From the NCBI GenBank assembly GCA_019118465.1, contig DWYX01000016.1:1-60982 (forward strand): a stretch of 60,982 nucleotides of DNA, in the 5' to 3' direction. This stretch comes from Candidatus Limosilactobacillus faecipullorum (GTDB lineage Bacteria > Bacillota > Bacilli > Lactobacillales > Lactobacillaceae). A model generated the notes under the pieces. It was not told where the DNA came from, made no database searches, and saw only the letters and a program-made list of their open reading frames with translations. Below are positions 11,941 to 60,035 of this stretch, one piece after another (within the stretch, counting starts at the first letter, position 1; each line of letters begins with the position of its first letter). The position numbers were made by a program, and so were the translations under genes.

Positions 11941-12002
11941 TTTCTGTGTAACATTCGGAGGTACGAGAAAGGCGGGGAAGAAATTTGACTTTCTTCCCCG
12001 CC
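11941..12002 (-). repeat. Intergenic repeat, terminator-hairpin module (copy R1)
   Basis: Read on the minus strand, this is a perfect 13-base hairpin (GGCGGGGAAGAAA paired with TTTCTTCCCCGCC) followed by a conserved tail, CTCGTACCTCCGAATGTTAC, then ACAGAAA. The same hairpin and tail occur at 18281-18343, 31732-31800 and 51402-51463. It begins 14 bases beyond the stop of the MFS gene and points the same way, so it probably also serves as that gene's terminator. Confidence 0.8.
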
Positions 12003-12015
12003 GCTTGCTTTCAAA

Positions 12016-13236
12016 TTAATTCAATTGCCGAATTCCTGGTAAGTTGAGCATAATCACAAAACTTAAGAGGTAGAGGGCGGCTAGGCACCCCATTGTAACG
12101 GCAAGGGTGTAGTGGTCCATCAAGAGGCCAATCACAACAGAGGAGAAACCCCCGATGGCCCGGCCAACGTTCATAATCATACTATTAGCCGTTGACCGGA
12201 TGGCAGTTGGGTAAAGGCGGCTAATGACGGCTCCGTAACCACCAAACATTCCGTTGGAGAAGAAACCGATCAAGGCACCGGCTAAGATTAAAGTTAATGA
12301 CGTCTTGGCAAAGAGGATTGAGAACATTACCAAGGCTGAACCAGGCAAGAAAATGCCGAAGGCCCAGCGAGGACCGAATTGATCCATTACCGTTCCAAAG
12401 ACAACCATCCCCAAGCTCATTCCCAGAATCGTCGCAATCATCCAGAGTGATGATCCGGAAACCGAAAGCCCCTGTTGCTTTTGAACGATTGAGGGGAGCC
12501 AGTTCATCAGACCAAAGTAACCAGCGATTTGAACAATCGTCATCACCATCAAGCCGAGGGTTTGAAGGGCTAATTTAGGACTAGCGAAGAGGCGACTGAT
12601 TGAGATCTTTTCGTGATTAGCTTTCGCCTTAGCGTGGGCGTTAATGAAGACCGCACTTTCGCTCAAGTGCCGGCGGATAAAGTAGGTCAAGATTACCGGA
12701 ATTACCCCAAGTAAGAAGAGGGCGTTCCAACCAAACTTCGGAATGATAACGGCAGCGGCAAGGGCAGCAAAGATCGCACCGATTTGACCACCGATTGCGG
12801 CAACCGAAGTTAACCGGCCAATCCGGTTAGCGGCAAAGTTTTCGGCAATCAAAGCCATCCCAACGCCGTATTCACCACCGGCCCCAATTCCGGCTAAAAA
12901 GCGGAAGAGGTAAACCATTGGTAAAGAGTGGACAAAGAACATGGCGGCGGTGGCGAAGGCAAAAATAAAGATCGTGTAAGAGAATGTCTTGACACGACCA
13001 ATGCGATCACCGACAAGGCCGAACGCCGCACCGCCTACTAACATTCCCAGGTTGGTGATTGAACCGATCCAACCAGCTGCGGCACTAGAAATGTGCAAGT
13101 CCGCAATCATTGGGGCAAGGGCAAACGAGAGAAACATGATATCCATGTTTTCCAGTGAGAACCCGGCGGCCGTTGAGGCGATCACCCAATGCTCGTTATT
13201 CGTTTGCGTTAAACGTTGACTACTTGTCTGTTCCAT
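12016..13236 (-). CDS. MFS transporter, aromatic-acid/sugar-acid symporter type
   Basis: This is a 406-residue inner-membrane carrier with about twelve hydrophobic segments. The MFS loop-2/3 signature is visible (GLVGDRIGRVK, near residues 75-85), as is the RFLAGIGAGGEYGVGMALIAE segment typical of the AAHS/shikimate-type symporters. The second half has a matching MDQFGPRWAFG loop. The ATG at 13234-13236 follows GGAGG on the minus strand. It stands alone, faces away from the transaldolase operon, and ends in repeat-type terminator R1. The substrate cannot be read from the sequence; an organic or aromatic acid is a guess from the subfamily. Confidence 0.85.
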   Translation of the reverse strand: MEQTSSQRLTQTNNEHWVIASTAAGFSLENMDIMFLSFALAPMIADLHISSAAAGWIGSITNLGMLVGGAAFGLVGDRIGRVKTFSYTIFIFAFATAAMFFVHSLPMVYLFRFLAGIGAGGEYGVGMALIAENFAANRIGRLTSVAAIGGQIGAIFAALAAAVIIPKFGWNALFLLGVIPVILTYFIRRHLSESAVFINAHAKAKANHEKISISRLFASPKLALQTLGLMVMTIVQIAGYFGLMNWLPSIVQKQQGLSVSGSSLWMIATILGMSLGMVVFGTVMDQFGPRWAFGIFLPGSALVMFSILFAKTSLTLILAGALIGFFSNGMFGGYGAVISRLYPTAIRSTANSMIMNVGRAIGGFSSVVIGLLMDHYTLAVTMGCLAALYLLSFVIMLNLPGIRQLN

Positions 13237-13255
13237 TATTTAATTCCTCCAAAAT

Positions 13256-13281
13256 GAAGGCTCACGGGCCTTCTTTATTTT
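13256..13281. promoter_or_regulatory. Small hairpin in the leader of the MFS gene
   Basis: GAAGGC and GCCTTC (13256-13261, 13268-13273) form a 6-bp stem just upstream of the minus-strand ribosome site. On the plus strand a T-rich run follows, so it could instead stop transcription coming from the other side. No function is established. Confidence 0.3.
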
Positions 13282-18255: not shown

Positions 18256-18280
18256 GAACGGAAAAGGGATTTTTGTTGTT

Positions 18281-18532
18281 AAGGCTGGGAAGAAAGTCAA
18301 ATTTCTTCCCAGCCTTTCTCGTACCTCCAAATATTGCACAGTATACTCCCTCCAGTCGGAACGATCCGCCTTGGCCTTGCGTGGGCGCACAAACGCCAAG
18401 CAAGTTGGCTGGTTCGATCCCAACCATGGCTTAGAGGATAAGTTAGAACGAAAGACCGCTGCTTGCGAATCAATCTTCGTTCTCTTACTAGGCCGTTGAG
18501 AAAATTTTCTTCCGACCTCGCTTATCTAAAAT
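18281..18532 (+). repeat. Composite intergenic repeat (hairpin + core), copies R2 and K1
   Basis: The hairpin AAGGCTGGGAAGAAA / TTTCTTCCCAGCCTT (18281-18316) is followed by the conserved tail starting TCTCGTACCTCC. The core module lies at 18375-18420 (contains GCCAAGCAAGTTGGCT), and a third module around AGGCCGTTGAGAAAA lies at 18490-18530, also seen at 31850. The unit points away from the cyclophilin gene and fills the whole gap up to mleR. No gene is visible in it. Confidence 0.8.
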
Positions 18533-42570: not shown

Positions 42571-42572
42571 GG

Positions 42573-45458: not shown

Positions 45459-45461
45459 CGT

Positions 45462-46990: not shown

Positions 46991-47034
46991 AATGTAACCC
47001 TTTCTTACGTTTTTGTCAAATAATTTGACAAAAA
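46991..47034 (-). promoter_or_regulatory. Exporter promoter with 25-bp perfect palindrome
   Basis: On the minus strand TTGACA (47014-47019), a 17-base spacer and TACATT (46991-46996) form the exporter promoter. A perfect 25-bp palindrome centred on A47022 (47010-47034, arm TTTTTGTCAAAT) supplies this -35 and also a TTGACA facing the MerR gene (47025-47030). A regulator bound there would control both genes. Confidence 0.65.
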
Positions 47035-47106
47035 TATCAAAAAATGTAACACTACCTATTGTGATTTGAGAACTAGAATTGTGAATGTGGAAAAGGGGGC
47101 ATCGTT

Positions 47107-47550
47107 GTGCGGGCATTACCGAATATTTTTAAGGAAGCCATGGCTCAGATTCAAATCCCATTATCTGAAATTTCCCGAGTCACTGGCGTTTCTCCCCGCC
47201 AGATCCGTTACTGGGAAGAAAAGGGCTTTTTAAATTCGCATCAAGCACAGAAAAATCAGAACCATAAATTTAACTTTTTCGCCTTAACGAAGGTCTTGGA
47301 GATCAAAAATTATCTTGACCAAGGCTTTACCCTCCAAGCGGCGGTTGAAAAACAAAAGAAACGGAAAAATATCGGTCGTAGTATCTATCGCTTTATTGCT
47401 GAGCGATTGCTTGCGACTGAAGAAAAGGGTAAGACGGTTGAAATTAACCTTGGCCCGTTAGATAACGATGAAACCAAAGTTGTGGTAGCCAAAGTTGAGA
47501 CTGGTCAACCCGTGAAAATAATTTTGAAAAAACATCAACCTTTAGATTAA
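47107..47550 (+). CDS. MerR-family transcriptional regulator
   Basis: A 147-residue protein. The winged helix-turn-helix is at about 18-85 (LSEISRVTGVSPRQIRYWEEKGFL, then FNFFALTKVLEIKNYLDQGFTLQAA). The C-terminal half, about 60 residues, has no cysteine cluster, so a metal-sensing role is unlikely. The GTG start at 47107 follows AAAGGGGG. It faces away from the MFS-DUF4811 pair and shares a palindrome with it, so it is probably the local regulator. Effector unknown. Confidence 0.87.
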   Translation: MRALPNIFKEAMAQIQIPLSEISRVTGVSPRQIRYWEEKGFLNSHQAQKNQNHKFNFFALTKVLEIKNYLDQGFTLQAAVEKQKKRKNIGRSIYRFIAERLLATEEKGKTVEINLGPLDNDETKVVVAKVETGQPVKIILKKHQPLD

Positions 47551-47610
47551 CGAAAACGCTCCCGGAGTGCTATCCTAAAGTTATAGAAATAGAAGAGGAT
47601 GGAGAAACTC

Positions 47611-47940
47611 ATGGTAGCATATCAATCATTATCTGCAGAAGCACAAGATCGGGCGCAACAAGGTTTCATGACTTTTTACATTGATCACTTTAAGCACGAC
47701 GATTTGGAAGTTTTGACTGAATTGGGTTCTGATAGTGAAATGGCAATGATTAATCACGTTTTGCGGAAGTACAACTTCTTAACGGTTGATCGCTTAGTGA
47801 AAATTAGCCAACGGTTGACGCAATCCATTTTCGTTAACTTATTGGAAAAAACGGAAATGGAATTTGATGCTAACGGGGTGCCAGCTGAAAGTTGGGAAAC
47901 TTGGATGGCTAAGCGACACGTCGTTTTGCGGACGTTCTAA
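47611..47940 (+). CDS. Hypothetical small protein
   Basis: About 109 residues from ATG 47611 (GGAG lies 7 bases before it; an earlier ATG at 47599 overlaps the ribosome site). Predicted soluble, helical and acidic, with EVLTELGSDSEMAMINHVL and a final WETWMAKRHVVLRTF. No membrane segment, cysteine or known motif. I do not recognise the family. It has its own terminator and lies between the MerR gene and rnjA, without clear operon partners. Confidence 0.7.
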   Translation: MVAYQSLSAEAQDRAQQGFMTFYIDHFKHDDLEVLTELGSDSEMAMINHVLRKYNFLTVDRLVKISQRLTQSIFVNLLEKTEMEFDANGVPAESWETWMAKRHVVLRTF

Positions 47941-47991
47941 GGCAGTTGGGAAAAATTCGCGACAGTCGGAATTTCTGTAGTATTTAAAATT

Positions 47992-48030
47992 AAAAAGAGC
48001 TGGGAAGAATTTTCTTCCTGGCTTTTTTTA
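47992..48030 (+). terminator. Terminator of the hypothetical gene
   Basis: AAAGAGCTGGGAAG pairs (with two G-U) with CTTCCTGGCTTTT, ending in seven Ts. Confidence 0.7.
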
Positions 48031-48070
48031 TCATTCCAACATATGATTAATGGACGATTCCTTTTACAAT

Positions 48071-48264
48071 GTGCTAAAATGTTTCCAGATTACTCTGAAC
48101 GTATAAAATAACGAGCCCTGTTGGTTACCGAAACCGACGGGTAAAATTGGTGATTTTTACCATGATCATCAGAAAAGATAATATTTAACCCAAAATTATC
48201 ATTAACTTTGTCGGGAAGTGACAGGACCGTTATCGAAATAAAATGAAGGAAAAGAAAGGGACTT
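48071..48264 (+). promoter_or_regulatory. Promoter and long structured leader of RNase J
   Basis: An extended -10, TGCTAAAAT (48072-48080), predicts a leader of about 178 bases. Two adjacent stems can form: CCTGTTGGTT with AACCGACGGG (about 48118-48142) and GGTAAAA with TTTTTACC (about 48140-48162). A long structured leader before a ribonuclease gene suggests post-transcriptional self-control. No known riboswitch is recognised. Confidence 0.45.
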
Positions 48265-50079
48265 ATGACAAAGCTAAATATTAAGAATAATGAAGTGGCT
48301 TTCTATGCGGTAGGGGGCCTTGGCGAAATTGGAAAGAACATGTACTGTGTGCAATTCCAAGATGAAATTGTAATTATCGACTGTGGGGTACTTTTCCCTG
48401 AAGACGAACTTCTCGGGGTAGACTACGTAATCCAAAACTATGATTACTTGGTTGAAAACAAGGATAAGATTAAGGCGATTTTTATCACCCACGGTCACGA
48501 AGACCATATTGGGGGCTTGCCATTCTTCTTACAAAAGGTGAACGTGCCGATCTATGCCGGACCATTTGCGATGTCCTTAATTAAAGGAAAACTCGATGAA
48601 AAGCACCTTTTGCGGGATGCGGAACTCCATGAAATTAACGAATTTGATACGGTTCACTTTAAGAAGCTTTGGGTTAGCTTCTTTAGGACGACGCACTCAA
48701 TTCCTGATACCTTAGGGGTGGCAGTGCACACCCCACAAGGGACGATTGTTCAAACTGGGGACTTTAAGTTTGACTTGACTCCGGTTGGTAATTTACCAGC
48801 GCCAAACTTCCAACAAATGGCTAAGTTAGGGGAAGATGGGGTCCTCCTTTTGACGTCTGACTCCACGAACGCTGAACGACCACAATTTACCAAATCAGAA
48901 CGGTGGGTTGATATTCATATTCGGCGGATTTTTGAGCGGATTAAGGGCCGGATTATCTTCGCTTCGTTTGCTTCAAACGTTTACCGGCTCCGGGAAGCGA
49001 GTGACGCAGCAATTAAGCAAGGTCGGAAGATTGCGGTATTTGGCCGGAGTATGGAAAATGCGATTGCGGCAGGGCAAGCTCTCGGTTACTTGAAGATTCC
49101 AGAAGACTCATTAATTGATCCAAATGAAATTAATTCCTACCCACCGGAACAAGTGATGATTATGTGTACTGGGTCACAGGGGGAACCGATGGCCGCCCTT
49201 TCCCGGATCGCTAACGGAACCCACCGGCAAATTAGCATCCAGCCGGGTGATACGGTTGTCTTTTCTTCTAACCCAATTCCAGGGAATACGACGTCCGTTA
49301 ATGCTTTGATTAACAAGTTGGAAGAAGGCGGTGCCGAGGTTATTCACGGTTACGTTAACAACATCCACACTTCTGGTCACGGGGGTCAAATTGATGAAGA
49401 ATTAATGCTTCGGTTAATGAAGCCGAAATTCTTCGCTCCGGTCCATGGTGAATACCGGATGCAAAAGATCCACACGAAGTTAGCTGAATTGACGGGGGTT
49501 CCTCAGGAAAACTCCTTTATCTTGGCAAATGGGGATGTTTTAGCCCTTACCAAGGATACTTGTCGGGTTGCTGACCACATTGATTCCATGGGGGATGTTT
49601 ATATTGATGGTCGCGATGTCGATGATGCGGTGGGGAGCCCTGAAATTCGGGAACGGCGTCTTCTTTCTGAAGAGGGGGTTGTAACGGCGATTGCAGTCGT
49701 TGACTTAAAGGACTTCCAAATTGTCGCTGGTCCAGACATTGTATCTCGCGGTTTCGTTTACATGCATGAATCCCAGGAGTTGATCAAGGCCGCTAACCAC
49801 GAAGTCTTCTGGGCGATCTTAAATACTTTTAAGAACCACAAGAAGGTTGACCGGCGGGCCATTAACCGGACGATCGTTTCCCGACTTCAACGGTTACTTT
49901 ACGAACGAACGGGACGGCGCCCAGTCATTATTCCAATGGTGACGATCTTAAATGCGGATAGTCAATCAAAGAATGATGACCATGAAGAACACACTAAGAA
50001 TGAACACCGGCCACACCGGAACCGGAATAACCGCCGAAAGCACAAGCCAGCGCCTAAAGAGACGGTTGCGGCTAAATAA
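48265..50079 (+). CDS. rnjA: Ribonuclease J
   Basis: A 604-residue metallo-beta-lactamase/beta-CASP ribonuclease with endonuclease and 5'-exonuclease activity in mRNA decay and rRNA maturation. The zinc motif HGHEDH at 76-81 is intact, so this is the active J1 type and not the degenerate J2. SDSTNAERP, GRSMENAI and TSGHGG mark the beta-CASP domain. The C-terminal 50 residues (about 555-604) are a basic Asn/His/Arg tail. The ATG at 48265 follows AAAGAAAGGG. It ends in the hairpin at 50129. Confidence 0.95.
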   Translation: MTKLNIKNNEVAFYAVGGLGEIGKNMYCVQFQDEIVIIDCGVLFPEDELLGVDYVIQNYDYLVENKDKIKAIFITHGHEDHIGGLPFFLQKVNVPIYAGPFAMSLIKGKLDEKHLLRDAELHEINEFDTVHFKKLWVSFFRTTHSIPDTLGVAVHTPQGTIVQTGDFKFDLTPVGNLPAPNFQQMAKLGEDGVLLLTSDSTNAERPQFTKSERWVDIHIRRIFERIKGRIIFASFASNVYRLREASDAAIKQGRKIAVFGRSMENAIAAGQALGYLKIPEDSLIDPNEINSYPPEQVMIMCTGSQGEPMAALSRIANGTHRQISIQPGDTVVFSSNPIPGNTTSVNALINKLEEGGAEVIHGYVNNIHTSGHGGQIDEELMLRLMKPKFFAPVHGEYRMQKIHTKLAELTGVPQENSFILANGDVLALTKDTCRVADHIDSMGDVYIDGRDVDDAVGSPEIRERRLLSEEGVVTAIAVVDLKDFQIVAGPDIVSRGFVYMHESQELIKAANHEVFWAILNTFKNHKKVDRRAINRTIVSRLQRLLYERTGRRPVIIPMVTILNADSQSKNDDHEEHTKNEHRPHRNRNNRRKHKPAPKETVAAK

Positions 50080-50128
50080 AGAGGCTATAATTGCGACTGT
50101 AGTTTTTGGGTGACAGTTGGAGATGTGA

Positions 50129-50170
50129 AAAAGACCAGAGAGAAGTTTAAGTTTCTCTCTGGCCTCTTTT
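50129..50170 (+). terminator. RNase J terminator
   Basis: AAAGACCAGAGAGAA pairs with TTCTCTCTGGCCTCTTTT. Confidence 0.85.
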
Positions 50171-50234
50171 AGTTATCTTGTTCTGGCAAAAAGGCTATAA
50201 TGGAAACGACGGCGATAAAAAGGAGGACATGGTT

Positions 50235-50882
50235 ATGAAAAAAGTAGCAATTATTGGTGCTTCTGGAATGGCTGGTCAGGAGATTTATCGGCTAGCGGAC
50301 CAGGAAGCTGACTGGGTAACAACGGGAATTGTTCGGGATGAGCGCAAGGCCCACAAGGTCCTAGGGCGGACTGCGCATTTGTTTGTTGCGGATGTTTTGA
50401 CAATGCCAATTGAACAATTAACTGGCTTTGATGTCATTGTGGATGCCTTCGGGACAGCACCAGTCTATGCTGGGGATCAGGTCGTTTTAGCTAAGAAATT
50501 AGTTGAAGTTGCCCGGCAATCTCACGCTAAGTTAATCTTTATTCTAGGTGCCGGAAGTTTGCATACGGGTGAAGATCACCACTTAGTAATGGAAGATTTG
50601 GCGAAGACGCCGAATGCAGAAACTTGGATCAATATTCCGCGACAGCAAAAGCGTGAACTCGACTTCTTACAAGGAGTTGACGATGTTGACTGGCTGGGGA
50701 TTTCCCCATCAATGACCTTTAAGGAAGGTCCGGCAACGGATTATGAACTTGGTCAAGATGACTTGTTAGGTGCAACCCCTGAAGAATCAGTTACAACGGC
50801 TGGTACGATGGCAAAATTAATTGTTAGCGAAATTAAGGACCCTGTTCACCATGGTCGGATTACGGTGGTTAATAAGGCCTAA
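50235..50882 (+). CDS. NAD(P)-binding SDR-like protein
   Basis: About 215 residues from ATG 50235, eight bases after AAAAAGGAGG; earlier ATGs are too close to that site. The Rossmann start is KKVAIIGASGMAGQEIYRLA. The protein is of the atypical short-chain dehydrogenase type (NmrA/YwnB-like), with VADVLTMPIEQLTGFDVIVDAFG. There is no Tyr-x-x-x-Lys catalytic pair, so it may be a redox sensor or isomerase-like protein. Relatives are stress-induced in lactobacilli. Function unknown. Confidence 0.8.
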   Translation: MKKVAIIGASGMAGQEIYRLADQEADWVTTGIVRDERKAHKVLGRTAHLFVADVLTMPIEQLTGFDVIVDAFGTAPVYAGDQVVLAKKLVEVARQSHAKLIFILGAGSLHTGEDHHLVMEDLAKTPNAETWINIPRQQKRELDFLQGVDDVDWLGISPSMTFKEGPATDYELGQDDLLGATPEESVTTAGTMAKLIVSEIKDPVHHGRITVVNKA

Positions 50883-51074
50883 GCTTGGTGCAATTATTGA
50901 TATTGACAATTGTGGACCTTATTATAAAATAACAAGTAAATATTAGAGGCTTATACTATTAAGAGATAGGGAGAAAACTACTCGATGGCTTGGTCGGGAT
51001 AAAGAGAATGAAGGTTGATTTGTAGCGGTTAGCGTAACTGTGAGAATATCTCTGTTACTATGATATTGTGGTAA

Positions 51075-51466
51075 GAAGCAGTAGCTAAATGACAGTTGCT
51101 TCCCTAACGGTCGAACCAACCTATTCAGCCTTGCATGGGTTCGCAGACACCGAGCAAGTTGGCTAGTTCTCTTCAAGTACAGTCCTTATAGATAAGTCAG
51201 CCGGAGAAAATTTACTTTGCAAACTTTACCCCGGCCTTTTCTTATCTCACAGGACCTTCTAGGAGCTTTCTTACTAACTAACTTTATCCTCTAAGGCCGG
51301 GGGTTGGAGCGAACTAGACAGGTTCCCTGTCGTTCGTAAACCTACGCAAGGACAAGTAGGATAGTGACGACCGGAAGACCTGGTTACTGTCTTGACCTAA
51401 GTTTCTGTGTAACATTTATAAATACGAAAAGGCTGGGGTAAATTTCTCAGCCTCTTTTTTTGAAAA
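51075..51466. repeat. Composite intergenic repeat with two opposite cores (K5, K6) and hairpins
   Basis: From 51075: GTAAGAAGCAGTAGCT (also at 59583), core K5 on plus (51129-51172), the long-hairpin module (51182-51255), then core K6 on minus (51305-51350) and the terminator-hairpin module R4 on minus (51402-51463). K5 and K6 face each other. The 600-base gap 50883-51479 contains no gene; 50883-51070 shows nothing recognisable. Confidence 0.8.
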
Positions 51467-51479
51467 CGGGGAGAAGATT

Positions 51480-52172
51480 ATGCTTGGAACACTTGCAAAT
51501 GTTTGTGCAATTTTAATCGGTACTTCGATTGGGTGCTTGTTAAAGGGTGGTATTAACAAGCAATACGAGAATGCGCTTTTTACGGCAATGGGATTAGCGG
51601 CCCTGGGAATTGGTCTGGAAAATGCAATTAATAATTTACCGAAGAGTCACTATCCAGTGCTTTTTATTGTCAGTTTAGCAATTGGCACTGTCCTTGGGAC
51701 CTACTGGCAAGTTGACACTCATTTTAATCAATTGGTTGCTAGTCATGGGGGAAAGTCACAATTAGGTAAGGGCTTGGCAACTGGGATTCTTCTTTACTGT
51801 ATTGGGGCCTTATCAATTGTAGGGCCGGTGATGGCGGCGGTTAAGGGTGACCAAACGATGCTCTTTACCAATGCGACCCTTGATTTTGTTAGTTCAATGG
51901 TCTTTGGCGCTAGTTTTGGTTGGGGGATGCTTTTTTGTGCCCCAGTCTTATTCTGTTGGCAAGGGGGAATTTACTTAGTTGCTAAGTACCTTTCAGCCGA
52001 CTTTTTCAGCGCTTCTTTAGTTACTGAAATTTCAATTGTCGGCGGTTTTTTAATCGCGACGACTGGGATTTCGCTATTAAAATTACGCGATCTTAAGACG
52101 TTGGACTTCTTACCTTCCCTACTAGTCCCGGTTGTATTTTTCCTTGTTAAGGACCTTACTGGATGGTTCTGA
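51480..52172 (+). CDS. DUF554 family membrane protein
   Basis: A 230-residue integral membrane protein with about six to seven helices. The opening LGTLANVCAILIGTSIGCLLKGG and the later GLATGILLYCIGALSIVGPVMAAVKGD are diagnostic of DUF554 (YqgA/YdfK-like). It is thought to be a transporter-like protein; function is not established. The ATG at 51480 follows ACGGGGAG, and the R4 repeat hairpin lies just upstream. 72-102 bases separate it from the next gene in the same direction. Confidence 0.88.
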   Translation: MLGTLANVCAILIGTSIGCLLKGGINKQYENALFTAMGLAALGIGLENAINNLPKSHYPVLFIVSLAIGTVLGTYWQVDTHFNQLVASHGGKSQLGKGLATGILLYCIGALSIVGPVMAAVKGDQTMLFTNATLDFVSSMVFGASFGWGMLFCAPVLFCWQGGIYLVAKYLSADFFSASLVTEISIVGGFLIATTGISLLKLRDLKTLDFLPSLLVPVVFFLVKDLTGWF

Positions 52173-52274
52173 TGTAAGCAAAAGCAATCTTTATTATTTT
52201 TGCGGATCCCTTTTTTCAAGTCCGCGAGTTTGGTAACATAAACAGTGAATAACTTTTTGACTGGAGGAAATAAG

Positions 52275-53495
52275 ATGTCTGGGACAGACTATCTCCAAAT
52301 TTGGTATCGGGCACAGATTTCAATCGCTCTTTTCTGTGTTCTCGTGATCGGTGGCTGGGAAACGTTTCATCAACTACCCTATGTTAGCTGGATGGCAGTA
52401 ATGGCGTTAGTCCTTATCTTCGCCTGGCTTGATGAAGGGTTAACCTTACCGTCATGGTTAACAGCGGTTAATCGGTGGCTCCAATGTTTAGTTCAACCCA
52501 TTATTTTAACTGTGGTTTGGTCAATTATGACCCGGGAAATAATTGTCCGCCTCCAATTGCCAGCTCGGGGAGTGATGGTAATTACCATGGCGTACTTTAT
52601 TGTTATGTTTGCTCCGATGGCAGGGATTGTGGGTGGTAAGTTAAAGACTCCGTTTGCCCGGATCTTTTATCCCGCCTGGTGGTTTGTGATTGTTATTCCC
52701 TTAGTTGGGAGTATCTATCCGGCCAAGTTTGCGGGTCCCCGGACCTTTGACTTAATTTTAACGACCGGGGCTTTAGGAGCGGTTGCTTTCTTCTTGATGA
52801 TGGTGGCTGTGATGCGGGCTTGGCATTTGTCGTGGCCTGGGATTAACCCTCAATTTGGCCGCGGCTTTAGTTGGCTAAGCTTAATTATTTTATTGGGACT
52901 CGGTTGCCTCTTTATTTTTATTAATTCGTTTTCAACGGGTGACCGCTGGAGTAATATTTTAACGAGCTATGATTTACACTTAGCTTATTCTTCCCGGGAG
53001 TATCTGTTAACAGCTTTTGAAGCTGGGGTGGCCGAAGAAACGCTTTGTCGGTTTGCTTTCTTAGGGGTCTTACTCTATGTCTTCCGGAATTTTCGGAACC
53101 AAGCACTATGGGCAATTTTAGTAAGTTCATTTTTGTTTGGACTCTTGCATTTTGGTAATGCCTTAGTGCAACCGTTTATGATTACTCTCCTACAAGCTGT
53201 TTCAGCAATGGCATTAGGGCTTTACTTTGCGGTAATATATCTGTATACCGGTCAATTATGGTTATCAATGTTAATGCACTTTTTGTTAGACTGGCTGGCT
53301 TTTTCGGCCAGTGGTTCAGTTGTCATGACTGGTTCACCAACGATTGCCGATTGGTACTTGCTTACTGTTGAAGTTCTCTTCTTCGGTGGGATAACGGCAT
53401 GGATGATGTTTGGTGATCGCCGGCAAGTGATCGATCGGCATGCCCGTCGCTTTGCTGGGGATGAACAACGGTTTAACTTCCGGTTGGAATTTTAG
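52275..53495 (+). CDS. CPBP-family intramembrane metalloprotease
   Basis: About 406 residues from ATG 52275, which follows CTGGAGG; an earlier ATG at 52245 has no ribosome site. Roughly ten hydrophobic segments. The CPBP/Abi motifs are complete: motif 1 EAGVAEETLCRFAFLG (EExxxR), motif 2 SFLFGLLHFGNAL (FxxxH) and motif 3 MLMHFLLDWLAF (HxxxD). Relatives cleave membrane substrates or protect against self bacteriocins; no bacteriocin gene is near. Role here unknown. Confidence 0.87.
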   Translation: MSGTDYLQIWYRAQISIALFCVLVIGGWETFHQLPYVSWMAVMALVLIFAWLDEGLTLPSWLTAVNRWLQCLVQPIILTVVWSIMTREIIVRLQLPARGVMVITMAYFIVMFAPMAGIVGGKLKTPFARIFYPAWWFVIVIPLVGSIYPAKFAGPRTFDLILTTGALGAVAFFLMMVAVMRAWHLSWPGINPQFGRGFSWLSLIILLGLGCLFIFINSFSTGDRWSNILTSYDLHLAYSSREYLLTAFEAGVAEETLCRFAFLGVLLYVFRNFRNQALWAILVSSFLFGLLHFGNALVQPFMITLLQAVSAMALGLYFAVIYLYTGQLWLSMLMHFLLDWLAFSASGSVVMTGSPTIADWYLLTVEVLFFGGITAWMMFGDRRQVIDRHARRFAGDEQRFNFRLEF

Positions 53496-53555
53496 CCAGT
53501 AGGTAGGGAGAAAAAACTGCCTTGACCAAAATTTTGAATAATATTTGGAGATGAT

Positions 53556-53602
53556 AAAAGGCGCAAGCTTTGGAATTTAGTTCCATATGCTTGCGCTTTT
53601 TT
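53556..53602. terminator. Shared bidirectional terminator
   Basis: AAAAGGCGCAAGC with GCTTGCGCTTTTTT and an inner TTGGAA/TTCCAT stem, flanked by A and T runs. It separates the convergent protease and multicopper oxidase genes. Confidence 0.85.
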
Positions 53603-53628
53603 GGTTTTAGCACTAATTTTTAAAGGAT

Positions 53629-55158
53629 CTACATCTCCATGCCCATCTTCTTGTAGGAGTCCATGCCACCAAGCCAAAGATGATCCATGTCAACGCCCCG
53701 TTCCTTAGCGAAGGCCATCATCAGATCCATATGGTTAAGGAGGGGATATTCTTTGTCTGGATCAGCCGGATCAATAACCTTTAATTGGGCCATCATTCCG
53801 CCGTCTTCGTGTTCAATGATATGGCAGTGGTACATGAAGACGCCGGCAACATTAAACCAGACCTTAATTCGAACGTGCTCACCAGGATTAATGGCAACCG
53901 TATCTTTAAGTCCAGTTTCAGTTGGGAGAGGAGCTTGGCCGTTCCGGGAGATTACCTTAAAGGTAGTTCCATGCATGTGGTAAGGGTGGATCATCCCGGG
54001 TTTACCATTCGTATTGTAAATGTCCCAGATTTGAACTTGGCCCTTTCGCATGGTGTAATCAATCCGGTCCATTTGGAACTTCTTGCCGTTCATTGCGACC
54101 ATTTCGTCCATCCCGTCAAGAGTAACGTGGTGAATTGGCAGTCCTGGAGTGACTTTGGGATCAGGAACATCAAAGAGTTTAGTTGGGAGTTTTTGTTGAT
54201 CAGGCTTAAATTCGTGGATTCGGAATTGGACCAGTGGCGTTTGATCGGTATAAAGAGTAACCACATCACCAGGCTTGCAATCCCCAAAGTCAACAATAAC
54301 TTCAGCCCGTTCAGCACAGGTTAACATCAATTTGGTTAACTTAATCGGTTTTGGTAACAGACTGAGGTCACCAGCGATTTGGGTCATGATCCGATCATTA
54401 TCAAAGTGGAGGCGCCATTCCCGTCGGTTAGCCCCGTTAAGGAACCGAAGTCGGAGCTTTGGAGTGGTAACATCAAAGTAAGGATTAATCGTCCCGTTAA
54501 TCATTGGGGTTGGCCCAGCAACTCCGTCTGGATCATAATCAGCTCGATAATCCCACTGGTTGTTTTCGTGGAAGCGCCGGTCTTGGAGAATAACTGGAAT
54601 GTCATCAACCCCGTAATTCCGTGGAAGTGGTAATTTGGCTTCAATTTGGTCGGTAACAATTGCCCCAGTTGCGAGGCCATGCCAAACTTGGGCCGCCGTT
54701 TCCGGACATGGGTGCGCATGGAGCCAGGTAAAGGCAGCTGGCTGGTTAATTTTAAAACTAACGTCCCGGCTTTGCCCTGGATAGACAGGGGCGTGACATC
54801 CGCCGTCTTCAATTGGACCGGGAATGGCTAAACCATGCCAGTGAAAAGTAGTTAATTCGGGCAAGTGGTTAACCAGATGTAAGTGATAGGTCTTGCCCCG
54901 TTCATAGCGAACGATTGGCCCTAGTAAACTTCCGTTGTAACCCCAGGTCGTGGTCTTATCACCGGGGAGTAATTGGGTCTCGCTAGCTTGGGCAGTCAAA
55001 GTGTACCAAGTTTCGGTGGCAGTTTGCTTGTCTGGTTCCAAAAGTGGCGGAATCGTCAGTGGCTTGGCGGGTGCATCAGCAACTTCAAGCGGAACATAAC
55101 CACCGTCGTGATAGTCGTAGGCACTTTCGTTATAGAAGTAATGATCAATTGTTGTCAT
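53629..55158 (-). CDS. Multicopper oxidase
   Basis: 509 residues from ATG 55156-55158, after GGAGGCATTTTT on the minus strand. Three cupredoxin domains and all four copper motifs are visible: TTFHWHGLAIPG, WLHAHPC, HPYHMHGTTF and MYHCHIIEHEDGGMM (the HCH that joins type-1 and type-3 coppers, with axial Met). No signal peptide or Tat motif is visible, so it is probably cytoplasmic. It resembles the CueO/SufI/spore-coat A branch of lactobacillus laccase-like enzymes, which oxidise phenols, amines or Cu(I). The promoter (TTGTAA-17-TATAAA) is on the minus strand at 55204-55232. Confidence 0.92.
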   Translation of the reverse strand: MTTIDHYFYNESAYDYHDGGYVPLEVADAPAKPLTIPPLLEPDKQTATETWYTLTAQASETQLLPGDKTTTWGYNGSLLGPIVRYERGKTYHLHLVNHLPELTTFHWHGLAIPGPIEDGGCHAPVYPGQSRDVSFKINQPAAFTWLHAHPCPETAAQVWHGLATGAIVTDQIEAKLPLPRNYGVDDIPVILQDRRFHENNQWDYRADYDPDGVAGPTPMINGTINPYFDVTTPKLRLRFLNGANRREWRLHFDNDRIMTQIAGDLSLLPKPIKLTKLMLTCAERAEVIVDFGDCKPGDVVTLYTDQTPLVQFRIHEFKPDQQKLPTKLFDVPDPKVTPGLPIHHVTLDGMDEMVAMNGKKFQMDRIDYTMRKGQVQIWDIYNTNGKPGMIHPYHMHGTTFKVISRNGQAPLPTETGLKDTVAINPGEHVRIKVWFNVAGVFMYHCHIIEHEDGGMMAQLKVIDPADPDKEYPLLNHMDLMMAFAKERGVDMDHLWLGGMDSYKKMGMEM

Positions 55159-55203
55159 AAAAATGCCTCCTAAAGGATTTTTTTGCATTAACTATAACGC
55201 GAT

Positions 55204-55232
55204 TTTATAATTTCCACTAGGGAGAATTACAA
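55204..55232 (-). promoter_or_regulatory. Promoter of the multicopper oxidase
   Basis: Minus strand: TTGTAA (55227-55232), a 17-base spacer and TATAAA (55204-55209), about 46 bases before the ATG. Confidence 0.55.
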
Positions 55233-55362
55233 TAAATAAAATAAATTTAGGATAAGCTAAAAAATATTCTTTACAATTAAAAAATCTGGAGTAGTATAGA
55301 AATTGAAGCACGAGGAGGTCGAAAGCAAACCTTGCGGCCTTCACAAGAGAGGGGAAAAATTA

Positions 55363-55830
55363 ATGTTTAAAATTAAGCCAAAAAAATTCCATCGCATTTT
55401 GGTTGGGGTGGACGATGCACCAGATGCCCGGGCAGCCTTTTCTTACGCTGTTGATAAGGCAAAGCGAGATGGTTCTGAATTGGGGATTGTCTCAATTTAT
55501 GAAACCAACGGGGTGAATGTTTACCAAATTTTAGACCGCGATTTTACTCACTCAAGTCGGGATGAAATGGAAAAGCGGATTGACCAATATGTTCAAGCAG
55601 CAATCGATTATGGAATTGATCCGAAGAAGATTACCGCAATCGTGGACCAAGGGGAACGCCCAGCAGAACGGATTTGTAACCACGTGATTCCAGAATTTGA
55701 ACCGGATTTGTTGATTATTGGTTCAATTGGGAAACCCGGGAGCCGGAAGACGGTGGGTTCGCAAGCTTCGTACATGGTTAAGCATTCTGGGACTTCTGTC
55801 TTCGTTATTCAAACGACTGATGAAAATTAA
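55363..55830 (+). CDS. Universal stress protein UspA family
   Basis: About 155 residues from ATG 55363, preceded by AGAGAGGGGA; an earlier ATG at 55303 has no ribosome site and would add an unlikely head. The alpha/beta UspA fold shows FHRILVGVDDAPDARAAFSYA and the ATP-type loop IIGSIGKPGSRKTVGSQASYMVKHSGTSV. The long leader (55290-55362) can form a stem between AGGTCG and CGGCCT. It is stress-related; the precise partner is unknown. A terminator follows at 55864. Confidence 0.9.
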   Translation: MFKIKPKKFHRILVGVDDAPDARAAFSYAVDKAKRDGSELGIVSIYETNGVNVYQILDRDFTHSSRDEMEKRIDQYVQAAIDYGIDPKKITAIVDQGERPAERICNHVIPEFEPDLLIIGSIGKPGSRKTVGSQASYMVKHSGTSVFVIQTTDEN

Positions 55831-55863
55831 AATTACTTCGGCTCTAAATTACTAAACCAGCTT

Positions 55864-55910
55864 AAAAGGGTGGGACAACGAAGTCAGCGATGACGGTTGT
55901 GTCACCCTTT
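55864..55910 (+). terminator. UspA terminator
   Basis: AAAGGGTG with CACCCTTT and an inner CAAC/GTTG pairing around a loop. Confidence 0.75.
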
Positions 55911-55964
55911 AGTTTTATAATATATATTGATTCTAAATAATATTGGAATATTAAGTTTAAACAG

Positions 55965-56000
55965 TTGATTTCATTTTCTTCTAGTTTATAATGATTATAA
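55965..56000 (+). promoter_or_regulatory. VIT operon promoter with a perfect PerR-type box
   Basis: TTGATT (55965-55970), 16 bases, TATAAT (55987-55992). The -10 is embedded in TTATAATGATTATAA (55986-56000), a perfect match to the Bacillus PerR consensus TTATAATNATTATAA and close to Fur boxes. Repression of the two metal transporters by PerR (or Fur) is inferred. Confidence 0.7.
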
Positions 56001-56023
56001 ATAACTAGAAAGGAAGAATGACG

Positions 56024-56707
56024 ATGGCAAAGAAAATGTCACTTGCACAAAAAGTTAATGTTATTCGGGCTAGTGTTATGGGCGCGAATGATGGCATTAT
56101 TTCAGTAGCTGGAATTGTCATTGGGGTCGCGGCGGCAACCAACAATGCTTATGCAATTCTAATTGCGGGTCTTTCCGGTAGCTTAGCCGGAATGATCTCA
56201 ATGTGTATGGGGGAGTACGTTTCGGTAAGTACCCAAAAGGATTCACAACAACGCGCGATTTTAGATGAACAACAAAAGATCAAGGAAAATTTCCAAGCTG
56301 AATTTGACTACGTTAAGGGAAAATATCTTGACCAAGGAATCGCTCCGGCTTTAGCTTATCAAGCGACCCAAGAACTAATGACTGATGATCCCTTAAATAC
56401 GGCGGTTCAAGAACGGTATGGCTTTAATCCAAAAGATTTTACCAGTCCGTATGATGCTGCAGTAGCTTCATTTATCTCCTTCCCGCTAGGTTCGATTTTA
56501 CCAATGGTGGCAGTCACGATGACTCCACCAGCGGTTCGGATTTTAGGAACGATGGTCGCGGTTTTGGTTGCTTTATTAATTACGGGTTACCTAGCCGCAG
56601 TCCTTGGTGGTAATCCAAAACGTGGAAAAGCAATGCTTCGCAACGTGGCCGCTGGTTTACTAACGATGGGAGTAACCTTCTTAATTGGGCAACTCTTTCG
56701 TGCTTAA
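56024..56707 (+). CDS. VIT-family metal ion transporter, copy 1
   Basis: About 227 residues from ATG 56024 (AAAGGAAG eight bases before; an ATG at 56018 is too close). A member of the CCC1/VIT1 family with about five helices. Family features: VIRASVMGANDGIISVAGIVIGVAAA in the first helix and MCMGEYVSVSTQKDSQQRAILDEQQ, followed by a long hydrophilic Gln/Glu-rich metal-binding segment. Family members export Fe2+ or Mn2+ from the cytoplasm. The operon is with copy 2 (25 bases apart). Confidence 0.88.
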   Translation: MAKKMSLAQKVNVIRASVMGANDGIISVAGIVIGVAAATNNAYAILIAGLSGSLAGMISMCMGEYVSVSTQKDSQQRAILDEQQKIKENFQAEFDYVKGKYLDQGIAPALAYQATQELMTDDPLNTAVQERYGFNPKDFTSPYDAAVASFISFPLGSILPMVAVTMTPPAVRILGTMVAVLVALLITGYLAAVLGGNPKRGKAMLRNVAAGLLTMGVTFLIGQLFRA

Positions 56708-56732
56708 TGAGTATTGAAGGGAGAAAGTAAAC

Positions 56733-57434
56733 GTGACGAATGTAAAAGTAAAGCGGGTTGATAAGACAACCCAAACCATGGAGGAAAAGCTGAATGTTTT
56801 ACGGGCCGGGGTCTTAGGCTCAAATGATGGGATCTTAACCGTTGTTGGGGTTTTGGTTTCGGTTGCGGCTGCCACGACCAATCATTTCACGATCTTTATT
56901 GCTGGCTTATCTGATTTATTGGCCTGTGCCTTTTCAATGGCGGCTGGTGAATATGCTTCCGTTTCGGCGCAAAAGGAGACTGAGAAAGCAGCGGTTGCTA
57001 AAGAAGCGGCTCTCCTAAAAACGGATTGGCATGGGCAAATGCAAGCCGTTAAGGACTTCTATGTTCAACGGGGAGTCCGAGCTGATACGGCTGAGGCAAT
57101 TGCTAAAGACCTCTTACAAAAAAAGCCGTTAGCCACGGTGGTTCGGGTGAAATATGATATTGAACTTGGTCACTACTTAAATCCTTGGGATGCTTCTTTT
57201 GCCTCTCTTTTTTCGGCAGCCTTGGGTGGCTTACTGCCTTTGATGGCGATGACCTTTGTTAATGGAAACTTAAAATGGTATGCAACGATTTTAGCGGTCG
57301 CCGTTACTTCTGCCTTGACGGGATACTTATCCGCTAAGCTTGGTGATGGTTTAACCCGCCGGGCAGTGATTCGGAACATCATCATTGGGTTAATTACGAT
57401 TACCATCCACTACGGGGTCGGTAAACTCTTCTAG
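56733..57434 (+). CDS. VIT-family metal ion transporter, copy 2
   Basis: A 233-residue second copy in tandem with the first, with similar layout: VLRAGVLGSNDGILTVVGVLVSVAAA and MAAGEYASVSAQKETEKAAVAKEAA. The two are clear paralogues but share less than half of their residues by eye, so the duplication is old. The GTG start at 56733 follows GAAGGGAG. Tandem VIT pairs are common in lactobacilli. A stem ending at 57508 closes the operon. Confidence 0.88.
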   Translation: MTNVKVKRVDKTTQTMEEKLNVLRAGVLGSNDGILTVVGVLVSVAAATTNHFTIFIAGLSDLLACAFSMAAGEYASVSAQKETEKAAVAKEAALLKTDWHGQMQAVKDFYVQRGVRADTAEAIAKDLLQKKPLATVVRVKYDIELGHYLNPWDASFASLFSAALGGLLPLMAMTFVNGNLKWYATILAVAVTSALTGYLSAKLGDGLTRRAVIRNIIIGLITITIHYGVGKLF

Positions 57435-57450
57435 AGAATTTTAATGAGGG

Positions 57451-57508
57451 CTAATCTCTTGCTTTATCAAGGCTTTTGAACTTGGTGAAGGAAGAGGTTA
57501 GTTTTTTT
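57451..57508 (+). terminator. VIT operon terminator
   Basis: CTAATCTCTT (57451-57460) pairs with AAGAGGTTAG (57492-57501) and is followed by TTTTTTT. Confidence 0.75.
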
Positions 57509-57521
57509 GTTGCTTTTTTCC

Positions 57522-57559
57522 TTAGTTAGTTATATAGTTAGTTACATAAGTAACTAACT
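57522..57559 (+). promoter_or_regulatory. Operator palindrome of the GntR/YtrA regulator
   Basis: AGTTAGTTAC (57536-57545) and GTAACTAACT (57550-57559) are perfect inverted arms with ATAA between. A further direct copy, TTAGTTAGTTA, lies at 57522-57532. Located just before the regulator gene, so self-control is likely. Confidence 0.6.
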
Positions 57560-57585
57560 AATGAAGCGGTTGAGGTGGTGAAAAA

Positions 57586-57963
57586 ATGAATTTTGAATTT
57601 GATCAATCTGCACCGTTATATCAACAACTTGCGGACCAACTTGCGGAAATGATTTTTACCGGAATTTTTAAGGAGGGAGAACAAGTGCCATCAACAACGC
57701 AACTTTCTCAAGAACTAAATATGAATCCGGCAACGATCTTAAAGGGGATGAACCAGCTAGTTGATCAGCACTTGCTGGAGAAACGGCGGGGACGGGGGCT
57801 GTTCGTCCTCCCAGGAGCGCAAGAACGGCTTGCTCATCAACATCGGGAAGATTTTTATCAGGATTATGTTGCGAGTTTAGTTACTGAAGCACAACGCTTA
57901 GGCATCGAAGAAGAACAACTATTAGCATTGATTAAACGGGGGTACCAAAATGGAAAAGCTTAA
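57586..57963 (+). CDS. GntR-family (YtrA subfamily) regulator
   Basis: A 125-residue short GntR regulator. The winged helix-turn-helix spans about 10-75 (YQQLADQLAEMIFTGIFKEGEQVPSTTQLSQELNMNPATILKGMN) with only a short C-terminal dimer segment, as in YtrA. YtrA-type regulators control an adjacent ABC transporter, often in response to cell-envelope antibiotics. GAGGTGG precedes the ATG. Its end overlaps the ATPase gene by 14 bases. Confidence 0.9.
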   Translation: MNFEFDQSAPLYQQLADQLAEMIFTGIFKEGEQVPSTTQLSQELNMNPATILKGMNQLVDQHLLEKRRGRGLFVLPGAQERLAHQHREDFYQDYVASLVTEAQRLGIEEEQLLALIKRGYQNGKA

Positions 57964-58819
57964 GGTGCAAGCAATTACGAAGCGCTACGGCCGAAAAATG
58001 ATCCTTAACGGGGTTAGTTTCGAATTACAGCCCGCTAAAATTTATGGCTTGCTGGGGCGTAATGGGGCGGGGAAGAGTACCCTGTTAAATATCATTACTA
58101 ACCGGATTTTCGCCACTCAAGGGGAAGTTAAGCTTGGTGATCAAAACGTGAATAATCATCAAGCTAGCCTCGGGCAGTTCTATTTAATGAGTGAAGCCGA
58201 GCTTAGTTTAAAACACATAAAGATTAAGGAACTTTTTGACGGTGCAGAGTTAGCCTATGGCAACTTTGACTTTGTAAATGCCCGGCGGATGTTAACGGCT
58301 TTTGGGATCAGCGAAGACCAAACGTTGGCAAAACTTTCAACGGGACTGAAAACCGCTGCCAAATTAACGGTCGCTTTAAACGTCAATGCAAACTATATTT
58401 TCCTTGATGAACCGACTTTAGGTCTAGACGCTAATCACCGAGAATTGTTCTACCAGGAATTAATGCGGACGTATGGTGAACGGCCCCGGACATTTGTGAT
58501 TTCCACTCACTTAATTAATGAAGTCCAACAACTTTTAGAAGATGTTATCATCTTGAATCAAGGTAAAATCACGGTTGATGAGCCGGTGGCGGATTTGTTA
58601 GCCCGGGCGTATGAAATTAGTGGGCCAGCTGATTTAGTTGACCAATACACGCAAGGTTTAAAGATCCTAACTAGTCATAATTTTGGTCGGATTAAAACAG
58701 TCACGGTTGTTGAAAAACTAGCGGAACAGCGGGTTTTACCAGATCAAGTTAAGATTGATCACCTTGACTTACAAAAGACTTTTACAGCGTTAACGAATGG
58801 AGGGATTGAAGGTGAATAA
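57950..58819 (+). CDS. ABC transporter ATP-binding protein
   Basis: A 289-residue ATPase with Walker A GRNGAGKSTLLN, a degenerate signature LSTGLKTAAKL, Walker B YIFLDEPTLGLDAN and the H-loop ISTHLI. The last 80 residues form a tail common in BcrA/YtrB-like exporters. Works with the permease that follows. Overlaps both neighbours. Confidence 0.93.
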   Translation: MEKLKVQAITKRYGRKMILNGVSFELQPAKIYGLLGRNGAGKSTLLNIITNRIFATQGEVKLGDQNVNNHQASLGQFYLMSEAELSLKHIKIKELFDGAELAYGNFDFVNARRMLTAFGISEDQTLAKLSTGLKTAAKLTVALNVNANYIFLDEPTLGLDANHRELFYQELMRTYGERPRTFVISTHLINEVQQLLEDVIILNQGKITVDEPVADLLARAYEISGPADLVDQYTQGLKILTSHNFGRIKTVTVVEKLAEQRVLPDQVKIDHLDLQKTFTALTNGGIEGE

Positions 58820-59516
58820 ACGAGTTAGCGGTTTAATGCATTGGACCATGAAATTGTCAGCCTGGAGCTTATTAATTGTGGCTGGCGTCGATCTGGTTTT
58901 TTGGGTTTTAGGAATCATTTTGAAATTTTTAACCCAAAGTCACAGGAGTCTTGCTGGTGAACTAACAGATTTTGTTGTGAATTTTGGAACATCAATTGAA
59001 GTCTGGGGCGTCATTTTACCATTGTTTGTTGCCTATCCATTATTCAAGTGGGGGATTCAATATGGCTATTCTCGCCGGAATATCTGGTTGGCTAATATTG
59101 CCTCTTTAGTAATTTGGATGGCTGTAATTTGGCTGGCCCACTTGTTAATGAATCTCGTTGCTTATCGCCAAATGGGACTCCAACACGCGACGGATGGTTT
59201 AGGTTGGGATCTGGTTGCGGTGATCGAGAGAGTTTTAACCTTAGCGGCGATCGGAGCTGGCTTTGCCCTCTTAAACCGGCGGTGGAAATGGATCATTGGG
59301 ATTGGAGGACCGGTCTTACTATTCTTCATGCTCGGGAGCCTAATTCACCTGATCTTTGTTACTTTGCGTGTCAATCCACAAGATTTAGCTAACTTCTTTA
59401 TGGCCCTAAATCTTAATAGTATGGGAACCCTTTACGGTGTTCTTCTTATCTGGGCGCTCTTAATGTTTGGCCTTATCTATGTCTTCTTTATGCGGATGCA
59501 ATTGCGGCGTGATTAA
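58812..59516 (+). CDS. ABC transporter permease (YtrC/BcrB-like)
   Basis: About 235 residues from GTG 58812, seven bases after GGAGGG; an ATG at 58797 is upstream of that site. About six hydrophobic helices, no soluble domain. Membrane partner of the ATPase, with which it overlaps by eight bases. With the YtrA-type regulator it forms a three-gene unit; the exported molecule is unknown, perhaps envelope-active. Confidence 0.82.
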   Translation: MNKRVSGLMHWTMKLSAWSLLIVAGVDLVFWVLGIILKFLTQSHRSLAGELTDFVVNFGTSIEVWGVILPLFVAYPLFKWGIQYGYSRRNIWLANIASLVIWMAVIWLAHLLMNLVAYRQMGLQHATDGLGWDLVAVIERVLTLAAIGAGFALLNRRWKWIIGIGGPVLLFFMLGSLIHLIFVTLRVNPQDLANFFMALNLNSMGTLYGVLLIWALLMFGLIYVFFMRMQLRRD

Positions 59517-59566
59517 GAGGGGAGAAAGTAACTGCTAAGGCCACTAAGTTAAAGGTTGGAACAACT

Positions 59567-60035
59567 TTGACTCGGATATCGTGGCAAGAAGCAGTAGCTG
59601 AATGGCAGTTGCTTGCACCAACCTATTCAGCCTTTTATGATTTCGCGGACGCTAAGTAAGTTGGCTAGCTCTCTGCAAGCACAGCCATTATAGATAAATC
59701 AGCCGGAGAAAATTTGCCAAGCAAATTTCACTCCGGCTATTTCCTTATCTCACAGGACCGGCTGAAAGCTTTCTTGCCAACTCACTTTTCAAAGCTTGGT
59801 CTTATCGTAAGCAAAAAGGCTCCGCCAGGAATCTTACTCTTATCTAGAGGGGGATTTCTGAGTGGAGCCGGATTAGACAAGCTACCAACGATAATTTGGC
59901 TACGGTAGCCAAATGGACATTACCATGCTTACGTCGACGCGATCCTACTTGGCCGCGCGTGGGATCACAAACGCCAAACAAGTTGGCTGGTTTGCTCCCA
60001 GCGTTCCTTTGCTAAGGGATGGGACTTTTTCGTTC
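59567..60035 (+). repeat. Longest copy of the composite intergenic repeat (K7, K8)
   Basis: The most complete element. In order: GCAAGAAGCAGTAGCT (59584), core K7 (59630-59674), long-hairpin module (59681-59760), AGCTTGGTCTTATCGTAAGC (59795-59814), a stem closed by GGCTCC/GGAGCC (59819-59874), GATAATTTGGCTACGG, core K8 (59951-60000) and an end module with GCTAAGGGATGGGAC then TTTTTC. It lies downstream of the ABC operon, pointing the same way, and contains no protein-coding frame that looks real. Confidence 0.82.

Follow-up and report, generated by a model that had tools for sequence, protein, structure and literature searches.

What kind of sequence recurs behind one gene after another in a bacterial genome, in pieces that keep their order and encode no protein? 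This question is raised by a 60,982-nt stretch of Candidatus Limosilactobacillus faecipullorum DNA (contig DWYX01000016.1 of assembly GCA_019118465.1; hereafter "the window"), in which an earlier sequence-only reading had described intergenic repeats built from a core, a hairpin with tail, and a longer hairpin. We found that these repeats belong to one family that extends across the genome and the genus, with a fold kept by covariation, a position at gene 3′ ends, a sequence specific to each species, and differences in presence, absence, and orientation between related species. On balance, we lean towards viewing them as non-autonomous interspersed elements that may have spread by occupying intrinsic terminators and that would now serve as terminators themselves.

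The window is contig 47 of an 88%-complete assembly of 1.52 Mb in 59 contigs (G000), and the nearest named relative is Limosilactobacillus alvi (97% identity in the one protein compared). Self-alignment of the window recovered all three modules at the coordinates that the sequence-only reading had given them, that is, the core (repeats D7, D8, D12, I6, and I8-I13), the hairpin with tail (D11, D18, D19, I3, I4, and I14), and the longer hairpin (I1, I2, and D7), and revealed an additional hairpin-tail copy at 50102-50164. BLAST searches of G000 with two stretches of the window gave 63 and 52 matches, with best non-self E-values of 3.6e-31 and 1.2e-50 that are far beyond chance, and a third query (one full copy on contig 21) gave 30 matches; the resulting 145 pieces fall into 61 sites on 29 contigs. 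The proposals of a multi-copy family beyond the window, of its non-coding nature, and of a fixed module order with internal deletions were all borne out: the family recurs in other Limosilactobacillus genomes, full copies measure around 260-290 nt, and the deletion forms join query positions 290 and 390. Overlap with genes was checked for the copies in the window, not for every one of the 61 sites, and these copies lie between called genes with the single exception of 44497-44541, which overlaps the start of a minus-strand open reading frame (ORF) call at 43558-44541 whose Pfam domain starts only at residue 65.

The full unit is composed, in this order, of an intrinsic terminator hairpin, a 5′ tail (TCTCCGAATATTACACAGTAATCG-like and often a short palindrome), and a rod-like hairpin of around 135 nt with five stacked helices and a 6-nt bulge on its 3′ side. 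The final arm of the rod is often similar to the left arm of the terminator in reverse complement, and at 38 of 62 sites the right end outscores 95% of local control stretches in its match to the upstream terminator stretch. Full copies in G000 start with a hairpin (AGGCTGGGAAGAAA...) followed by the tail CTCGTACCTCCGAATGTTACACAGAAAC, the core domain, and a right-hand hairpin domain ending in CGACCTC. The core is an optional domain of around 100 nt in the version of the window species, inserted in the outer stem; many G000 copies lack it at the same junction, giving a short form of 123-135 nt, and other species carry a different insert of around 22-25 nt at this point (by eye). A GC-rich hairpin followed by a T-rich tract is seen in the fold of 18281-18317 and at two sites of a terminator scan that covered 42000-60982 (50135-50162 and 51430-51453), and filled and empty sites alike display a hairpin and T-tract in the aligned pairs of genomes G050 and G051 described below. 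One locus (L198) contains a tandem dimer of the element.

The fold itself is well supported. All five intact elements that were folded, including two from G000, do better than shuffled sequences (z −3.2 to −7.0). In an alignment of 28 of the 64 elements with a right end, picked for similar length (A1), 96.7% of cells are paired and 13 of 32 base pairs show changes on both sides. For a broader sample, we built a covariance model (R1) from 28 elements of four genomes, excluding G000, and aligned by sequence alone 20 copies that it found in 18 Limosilactobacillus genomes and one genome of another genus (A5; L294, L307, L308, and L310-L316 were left out among the R1 loci L294-L319). Here, the conserved structure for which a covariance model had been suggested as a check is evident from compensated changes in 25 of 31 base pairs, and 93.2% of cells are paired compared to 71.0% in shuffled and 29-45% in slid controls. 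None of 500 shuffles matched A5 in its share of paired cells, in its count of pairs changed on both sides, or in its covariation score, and the measure of further pair types was no higher than shuffled (244 of 500 in A5 and 499 of 500 in A1). The bulge measures 6 nt in all 20 rows of A5 and reads CGAGRA in 10. Counts of G-U versus A-C cells (29/21 in A1, 9/25 in A5, and 57/15 in a further alignment, A2) indicate no consistent strand, so that RNA on either strand or single-stranded DNA is possible. Of the two roles envisaged by the sequence-only reading, a structured 3′ element is thus strongly supported by the covariation, and predicted terminator hairpins are compatible with a role in termination.

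The position of the elements relative to genes is equally distinctive. Repeats occupy 5 of the 7 convergent intergenic regions of at least 50 bp in the window and 4 of the 23 other regions (Fisher p 0.014; genes defined as ORFs of at least 100 aa). Four other genomes contain 79 tail matches, 64 of them with a right end, and the 63 that we classified (one of two L204 copies was left out) comprise 29 convergent, 14 tandem sense, 13 tandem antisense, 5 divergent (including doubtful gene calls), and 2 unknown sites, with counts for G050 and G051 that are not independent because these genomes have sites in common. Among 31 sites in G000, 12 are convergent, 6 sense, 11 antisense, and 2 unknown. Where a gene on the same strand precedes the unit (43 sites), the tail begins 43-97 nt past the stop codon of that gene in 35 cases. 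Where a gene opposes the unit (42 sites), the right end is at most 15 nt away from the opposing stop codon, or overlaps it by up to 10 nt, in 33 cases. The whole stretch between two stop codons is often taken up by the unit. The earlier view that copies lie downstream of a gene and share its direction therefore stands for the location at gene 3′ ends and falls for the direction, which is random as far as the tandem sites tell.

Across genomes, hits to the tail motif are concentrated in G000, G038, G050, G051, G061, and G013 and are weaker in G008 (we fetched 21 of 29 in G051, 22 of 33 in G050, and 3 of 8 in G013). At the loci that we read (20 in G051, 18 in G038, 16 in G061, and 3 each in G008 and G013), the element mostly sits directly behind a terminator hairpin that is, by eye, gene-specific in several copies (e.g., L181, L200, L215, and L171). 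R1 matched 32 of 50 Limosilactobacillus genomes at E ≤ 0.001 and gave no match at this threshold in the other 18, with strict filters and some incomplete genomes. With at most 66 candidates scored per genome, the high counts are lower bounds: at least 61 in G008, 50 in G050, 40 in G051, 35 in G061, 27 in G038, and 26 in G059. G000 has 8 matches, including the short-form copies C15:3572 (61 bits) and C28:21421 (53 bits). Among 397 Lactobacillaceae genomes, with at most eight candidates scored in each, 25 contained a match; these were 15 Limosilactobacillus and 10 genomes from six other genera, 8 of the latter with a single match, and eight more Limosilactobacillus genomes were listed without one. 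Copies are similar within one species, and mainly the fold is retained between species.

The element is also found on plasmid records, namely three of L. fermentum (760, 252, and 32 kb; among the named carriers is a record of L. fermentum DR9) and one plasmid of L. panis. No gene is listed at the elements of two of these records (one of L. fermentum, one of L. panis) in a gene table that holds no RNA genes. Separately, we observed that related elements directly follow asnB: genomes of two other genera (L309 and L312) have them at the same position, and they also occur on plasmids of further genera (L322-L324). A query made of the asnB end and the L309 array was covered to at least 80% in 30 of 37 matching plasmid records, mostly of Latilactobacillus and Lactiplantibacillus, and R1 confirmed a partial element (34-39 bits) in all three asnB plasmid records that were fetched; such partial elements stand beside asnB on plasmids of Latilactobacillus sakei and Lactiplantibacillus plantarum. 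This suggests that these elements are transferred together with asnB. Carriage by phages or viruses was discarded as an idea after one G051 element found no match in a phage collection and a narrow apex pattern, the one version searched there, found no exact match in viral contigs.

The comparison of G050 with G051 reveals how individual sites differ between related species. Across 24 sites in all, 14 are shared and 10 differ; at eight of the latter, one species lacks the element and often carries an unrelated terminator instead, one site is inverted, and one holds another version. Nine sites had been matched in place in the initial comparison. We then took 12 additional G051 sites, whose flanks were searched in G050 and other genomes, and 13 additional G050 sites, whose flanks were searched in G051; all were chosen for lacking a counterpart seen earlier, which favors differences. 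The former gave ten aligned pairs, of which five share the element, three are empty in G050 (L162, L169, and L173), one is a diverged partial version (L161/L276), and one is aligned on one side only (L174). The latter gave 11 aligned loci, six of them on both sides, where the element is missing in G051 at L232, L234, L235, L241, and L242 and inverted at L236. One-sided alignments (L174, L229, L233, L237, L239, and L245) were dropped from the differing count, and 2 of the 14 shared sites are also one-sided (L171/L244 and L172/L263).

In the clearest insertion (L162/L275), the two species differ by one unit placed between the foot of a hairpin and its T-tract. In the clearest replacement (L241/L278), an unrelated terminator stem takes the exact place of the unit between near-identical flanks, and L242/L287 and L235/L281 likewise pair a unit in one species with an unrelated simple terminator in the other; at L236/L280 the unit lies in opposite orientation. 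With R1, no element is found at the L162 site in G050, G013, G038, and G061 or at the L173 site in G050, G013, G038, G008, and G061, where G008 and G061 align only past the first 40 bases. Beyond this pair of genomes, the element at one gene pair is oppositely oriented in G000 and G051, one site is common to G000 and G061 in the same orientation (both flanks; C28:16534 and L211), two are shared by one flank (L164/L213 and L174/L212), and L. alvi carries a full copy including the core at the site matching window position 31732, where the window copy is deleted inside. As a side observation, a palindromic intergenic repeat of the type GGGAGTG-GACAGAACT is visible by eye in L162 of G051, L175, L177, and L217, with the element added next to a copy in L162; it is perhaps a second terminator-linked repeat family.

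The copies in the window are as follows, with the alignment repeats or other evidence in parentheses:

11938-12005, minus strand: truncated copy made of a terminator hairpin (11968-12002) and 5′ tail, at the 3′ end of a minus-strand MFS gene (MFS_1; alignment)
18281-18317, plus strand: terminator hairpin of the window's best full-order copy, after a cyclophilin gene (Pro_isomerase; alignment, BLAST)
18318-18518, plus strand: tail, core (18375-18420), and right-hand domain ending in CGACCT, near the stop of a convergent LysR gene
31732-31866, plus strand: copy with an internal deletion that leaves hairpin, tail, and right end, flanked by a lactate/malate dehydrogenase gene and, convergent to it, an alcohol dehydrogenase gene (R1 E 0.04)
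38363-38399, strand unassigned: module CCCAGCCATTAGC(T/C)AGGGAACGT, common to 43273 and 44458 (D16)
38471-38516, minus strand: core (I9, I10)
43273-43309, strand unassigned: module CCAGCCATTAGCCAGG (D16)
43308-43358, minus strand: core (I8)
43458-43555, minus strand: longer hairpin, the second terminator type (I1, I2)
44458-44736, minus strand: mosaic copy of the CCAGCCATTAGC module, core (44497-44546), and shared blocks 44565-44621 and 44687-44736 (D16, I5, I7, I11-I13)
50102-50164, minus strand: hairpin and tail after an RNase J gene, antisense to it (D11, D18; RNase_J)
51109-51176, plus strand: core (D7, D8)
51153-51249, plus strand: longer hairpin, the second terminator type (I2, D7)
51284-51453, minus strand: core, tail, and terminator hairpin of an inverted copy (D12, D18; terminator-like site 51430-51453)
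59617-59746, plus strand: core and longer hairpin (D7, I1)
59788-59904, plus strand: two further shared blocks, 59788-59837 and 59848-59904 (I5, I7)
59933-60021, plus strand: core and terminator-like right end (D8, I10, I12; terminator-like site 60002-60021)

The hairpin region 18270-18330 folds at −25.9 kcal/mol (z −6.65 versus shuffles). A near-perfect 26-bp inverted repeat with a 7-nt loop (38579-38637; I19) adjoins a core copy and is perhaps a separate terminator. Elsewhere in the window, a TPP riboswitch (RF00059; 42475-42582) lies upstream of a TENA/THI-4 family gene at 42808, and an open reading frame of 3655 aa (100-11067) contains many diverged repeats and resembles, by our reading, a large repeat-built surface protein.

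We lean towards the following account of these elements. Copies would insert into or replace terminators and thereby spread, possibly aided by an enzyme that acts in trans and recognizes the folded unit; the host may tolerate them because the unit would still terminate transcription, in both directions at convergent genes; and the long hairpins would afterwards decay via internal deletion. Several results weigh against this account. No autonomous copy or moving enzyme was found, and no target-site duplication is visible in the aligned filled and empty pairs. With 14 of 24 sites common to the two species, and with differences deliberately sought, turnover is not fast everywhere, and the flanks at differing sites are often 85-97% alike, so that some swaps could be due to recombination of entire stretches. 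Only two sites were checked for absence in additional species, G008 has its own version at the L162 site, G050 has another partial version at the L161 site, and the "empty" site of L232/L279 keeps possible remnants of the ends. Regarding structure, R1, which supplied the rows of A5, scores the same structure, so that their choice leans towards it; the core and longer hairpin (51165-51250) fold no better than shuffles as a single strand (z −0.85 and −1.23); and RNAalifold on 14 right-hand domains from decayed copies of G000 (A4) yields no long hairpin and 8 pairs only, for which reason the covariation rests on other species and two intact short-form copies. The copies in the window receive weak R1 scores (best E 0.012, on a plain hairpin), and terminator-like sites in 42000-60982 are no commoner than in shuffles (25 versus 22.0).

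The same covariation would be expected of a host-encoded RNA structure at mRNA 3′ ends (a 3′ protector, a double terminator, or a 3′-UTR-derived RNA) that is kept by selection and acquires its species-specific sequence by recombination between copies, i.e., concerted evolution instead of transposition. Compensated pairs even within one genome (3 of 39 pairs in G061, e.g., columns 29-127) and the sites shared between species (C28:16534/L211, L164/L213, L174/L212, and the L. alvi site) fit this explanation. It nevertheless seems doubtful to us, given that orthologous intergenic regions hold unrelated terminators or an inverted unit, that there is neither an orientation preference nor a consistent strand bias of G-U versus A-C cells, and that 18 of 50 congeneric genomes have no R1 match at E ≤ 0.001 under strict filters, some of them being incomplete. 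A classical miniature inverted-repeat transposable element (MITE), that is, a DNA transposon that has lost internal sequence, keeps terminal inverted repeats, and depends for its movement on a DDE transposase encoded elsewhere in the genome, would account for the size of 135-340 nt, the intergenic location, the tandem dimer at L198, and the resemblance of the right end to the upstream terminator stretch at 38 of 62 sites. Such an element would not be expected to need a covarying internal rod or a position tied to terminators, and it would leave target-site duplications, which the aligned pairs do not display; moreover, the surroundings of the 15 tail loci that lack a right end nearby show no longer relative (stretches of 146 to 2500 nt, some below 200 nt, were read at each; no genome-wide search for matching ends was made). 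We consider this origin quite improbable.

Descent from group IIC introns or use of their reverse transcriptase, which also involves insertion behind terminator hairpins, appears very unlikely, even if the target is the same. At L172 of G051 (2034-3950, minus strand), a group II intron, group IIC by our reading, lies exactly between terminator and element, and G051 has 25 matches to the group II reverse-transcriptase family TIGR04416. The carriers G000, G061, and G008 have no TIGR04416 match, although G008 is a single contig rich in elements (61 R1 hits), and no group II model of Rfam matches the elements; we therefore dropped this reverse transcriptase as a requirement. For a REP-like family, which the sequence-only reading had imagined to be maintained by a transposase elsewhere, Y1 transposases of the RAYT type are unlikely as a general rule: PF01797 matches are present in G000, G008, G013, G038, and G061, and there are none in G050 and G051 despite their 50 and 40 R1 hits, so that we rejected them as the general mover. 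A rather unlikely mechanism is that the rod is a substrate of single-stranded recombination or retro-insertion, with a folded strand and one-sided 6-nt bulge that a putative recombinase or reverse transcriptase would insert at terminator hairpins; this would be an integron-attC-like system of independent origin in Lactobacillaceae that trades terminators between genes.

The interspersed elements that we favor would join two topics that are usually kept separate, terminators and mobile repeats, and suggest that ordinary genes have their stop signals replaced as units during species divergence. Their presence in L. fermentum offers a host where termination, mRNA stability, and movement are testable. 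No described family had been recognized in the window before, and this holds up against Rfam 15: an element with 25 of 31 compensated base pairs, found in 32 of 50 Limosilactobacillus genomes and an L. fermentum record, reaches no gathering threshold there in searches of the window and, in three further searches, 32 source entries. The only matches above threshold were to tRNA and TPP and, in L172 but outside the element, to parts of a group II intron; below it were, among others, mir-3155 at 18281-18316 (E 2.4), asX6 at 11942-12007 (E 4.8), and MIR8562 beside the L200 element (E 0.11), which we take as chance matches.

Among known systems, group IIC introns (Rfam RF00029 and RF02001) insert behind intrinsic terminator hairpins; unlike them, the element has no ribozyme domains or reverse transcriptase and measures around 135 nt compared to around 1.9 kb for the intron in L172. 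The attC sites of integrons are long imperfect hairpins 3′ of genes with extrahelical bases on one side, near-identical within a species and mainly conserved in fold between species. Unlike attC sites, the present element is dispersed at ordinary genes in both orientations and does not form a cassette array. A full-text literature search found no description of such a family in lactobacilli by title or start of abstract, with most subscription papers and bioRxiv preprints, where one may exist, outside its scope. A table of PMC2267715 lists three stem-loop clusters of Lactobacillus johnsonii, uncompared with the present family, and Lactobacillus and Limosilactobacillus are absent from the main text of PMC12306157. 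REP/BIME sequences with RAYT (Y1) transposases (PMC2817692) are similarly extragenic palindromes in mosaic arrangement; they differ from the much longer covarying rod found here, and G050 and G051, second and third in hit number, have no Y1 match. Comparable by description are the BOX, RUP, and SPRITE repeats of Streptococcus pneumoniae, which PMC3049150 portrays as small, non-coding, intergenic, and over-represented between convergent genes, with BOX being modular and SPRITE terminator-like and near gene 3′ ends. BOX and RUP cause target-site duplications (PMC3049150), and none were seen for the present element. Unlike these repeats, the family described here has a fold kept by covariation across many species, is attached to or replaces the terminators of genes, and spans a genus and further genera.

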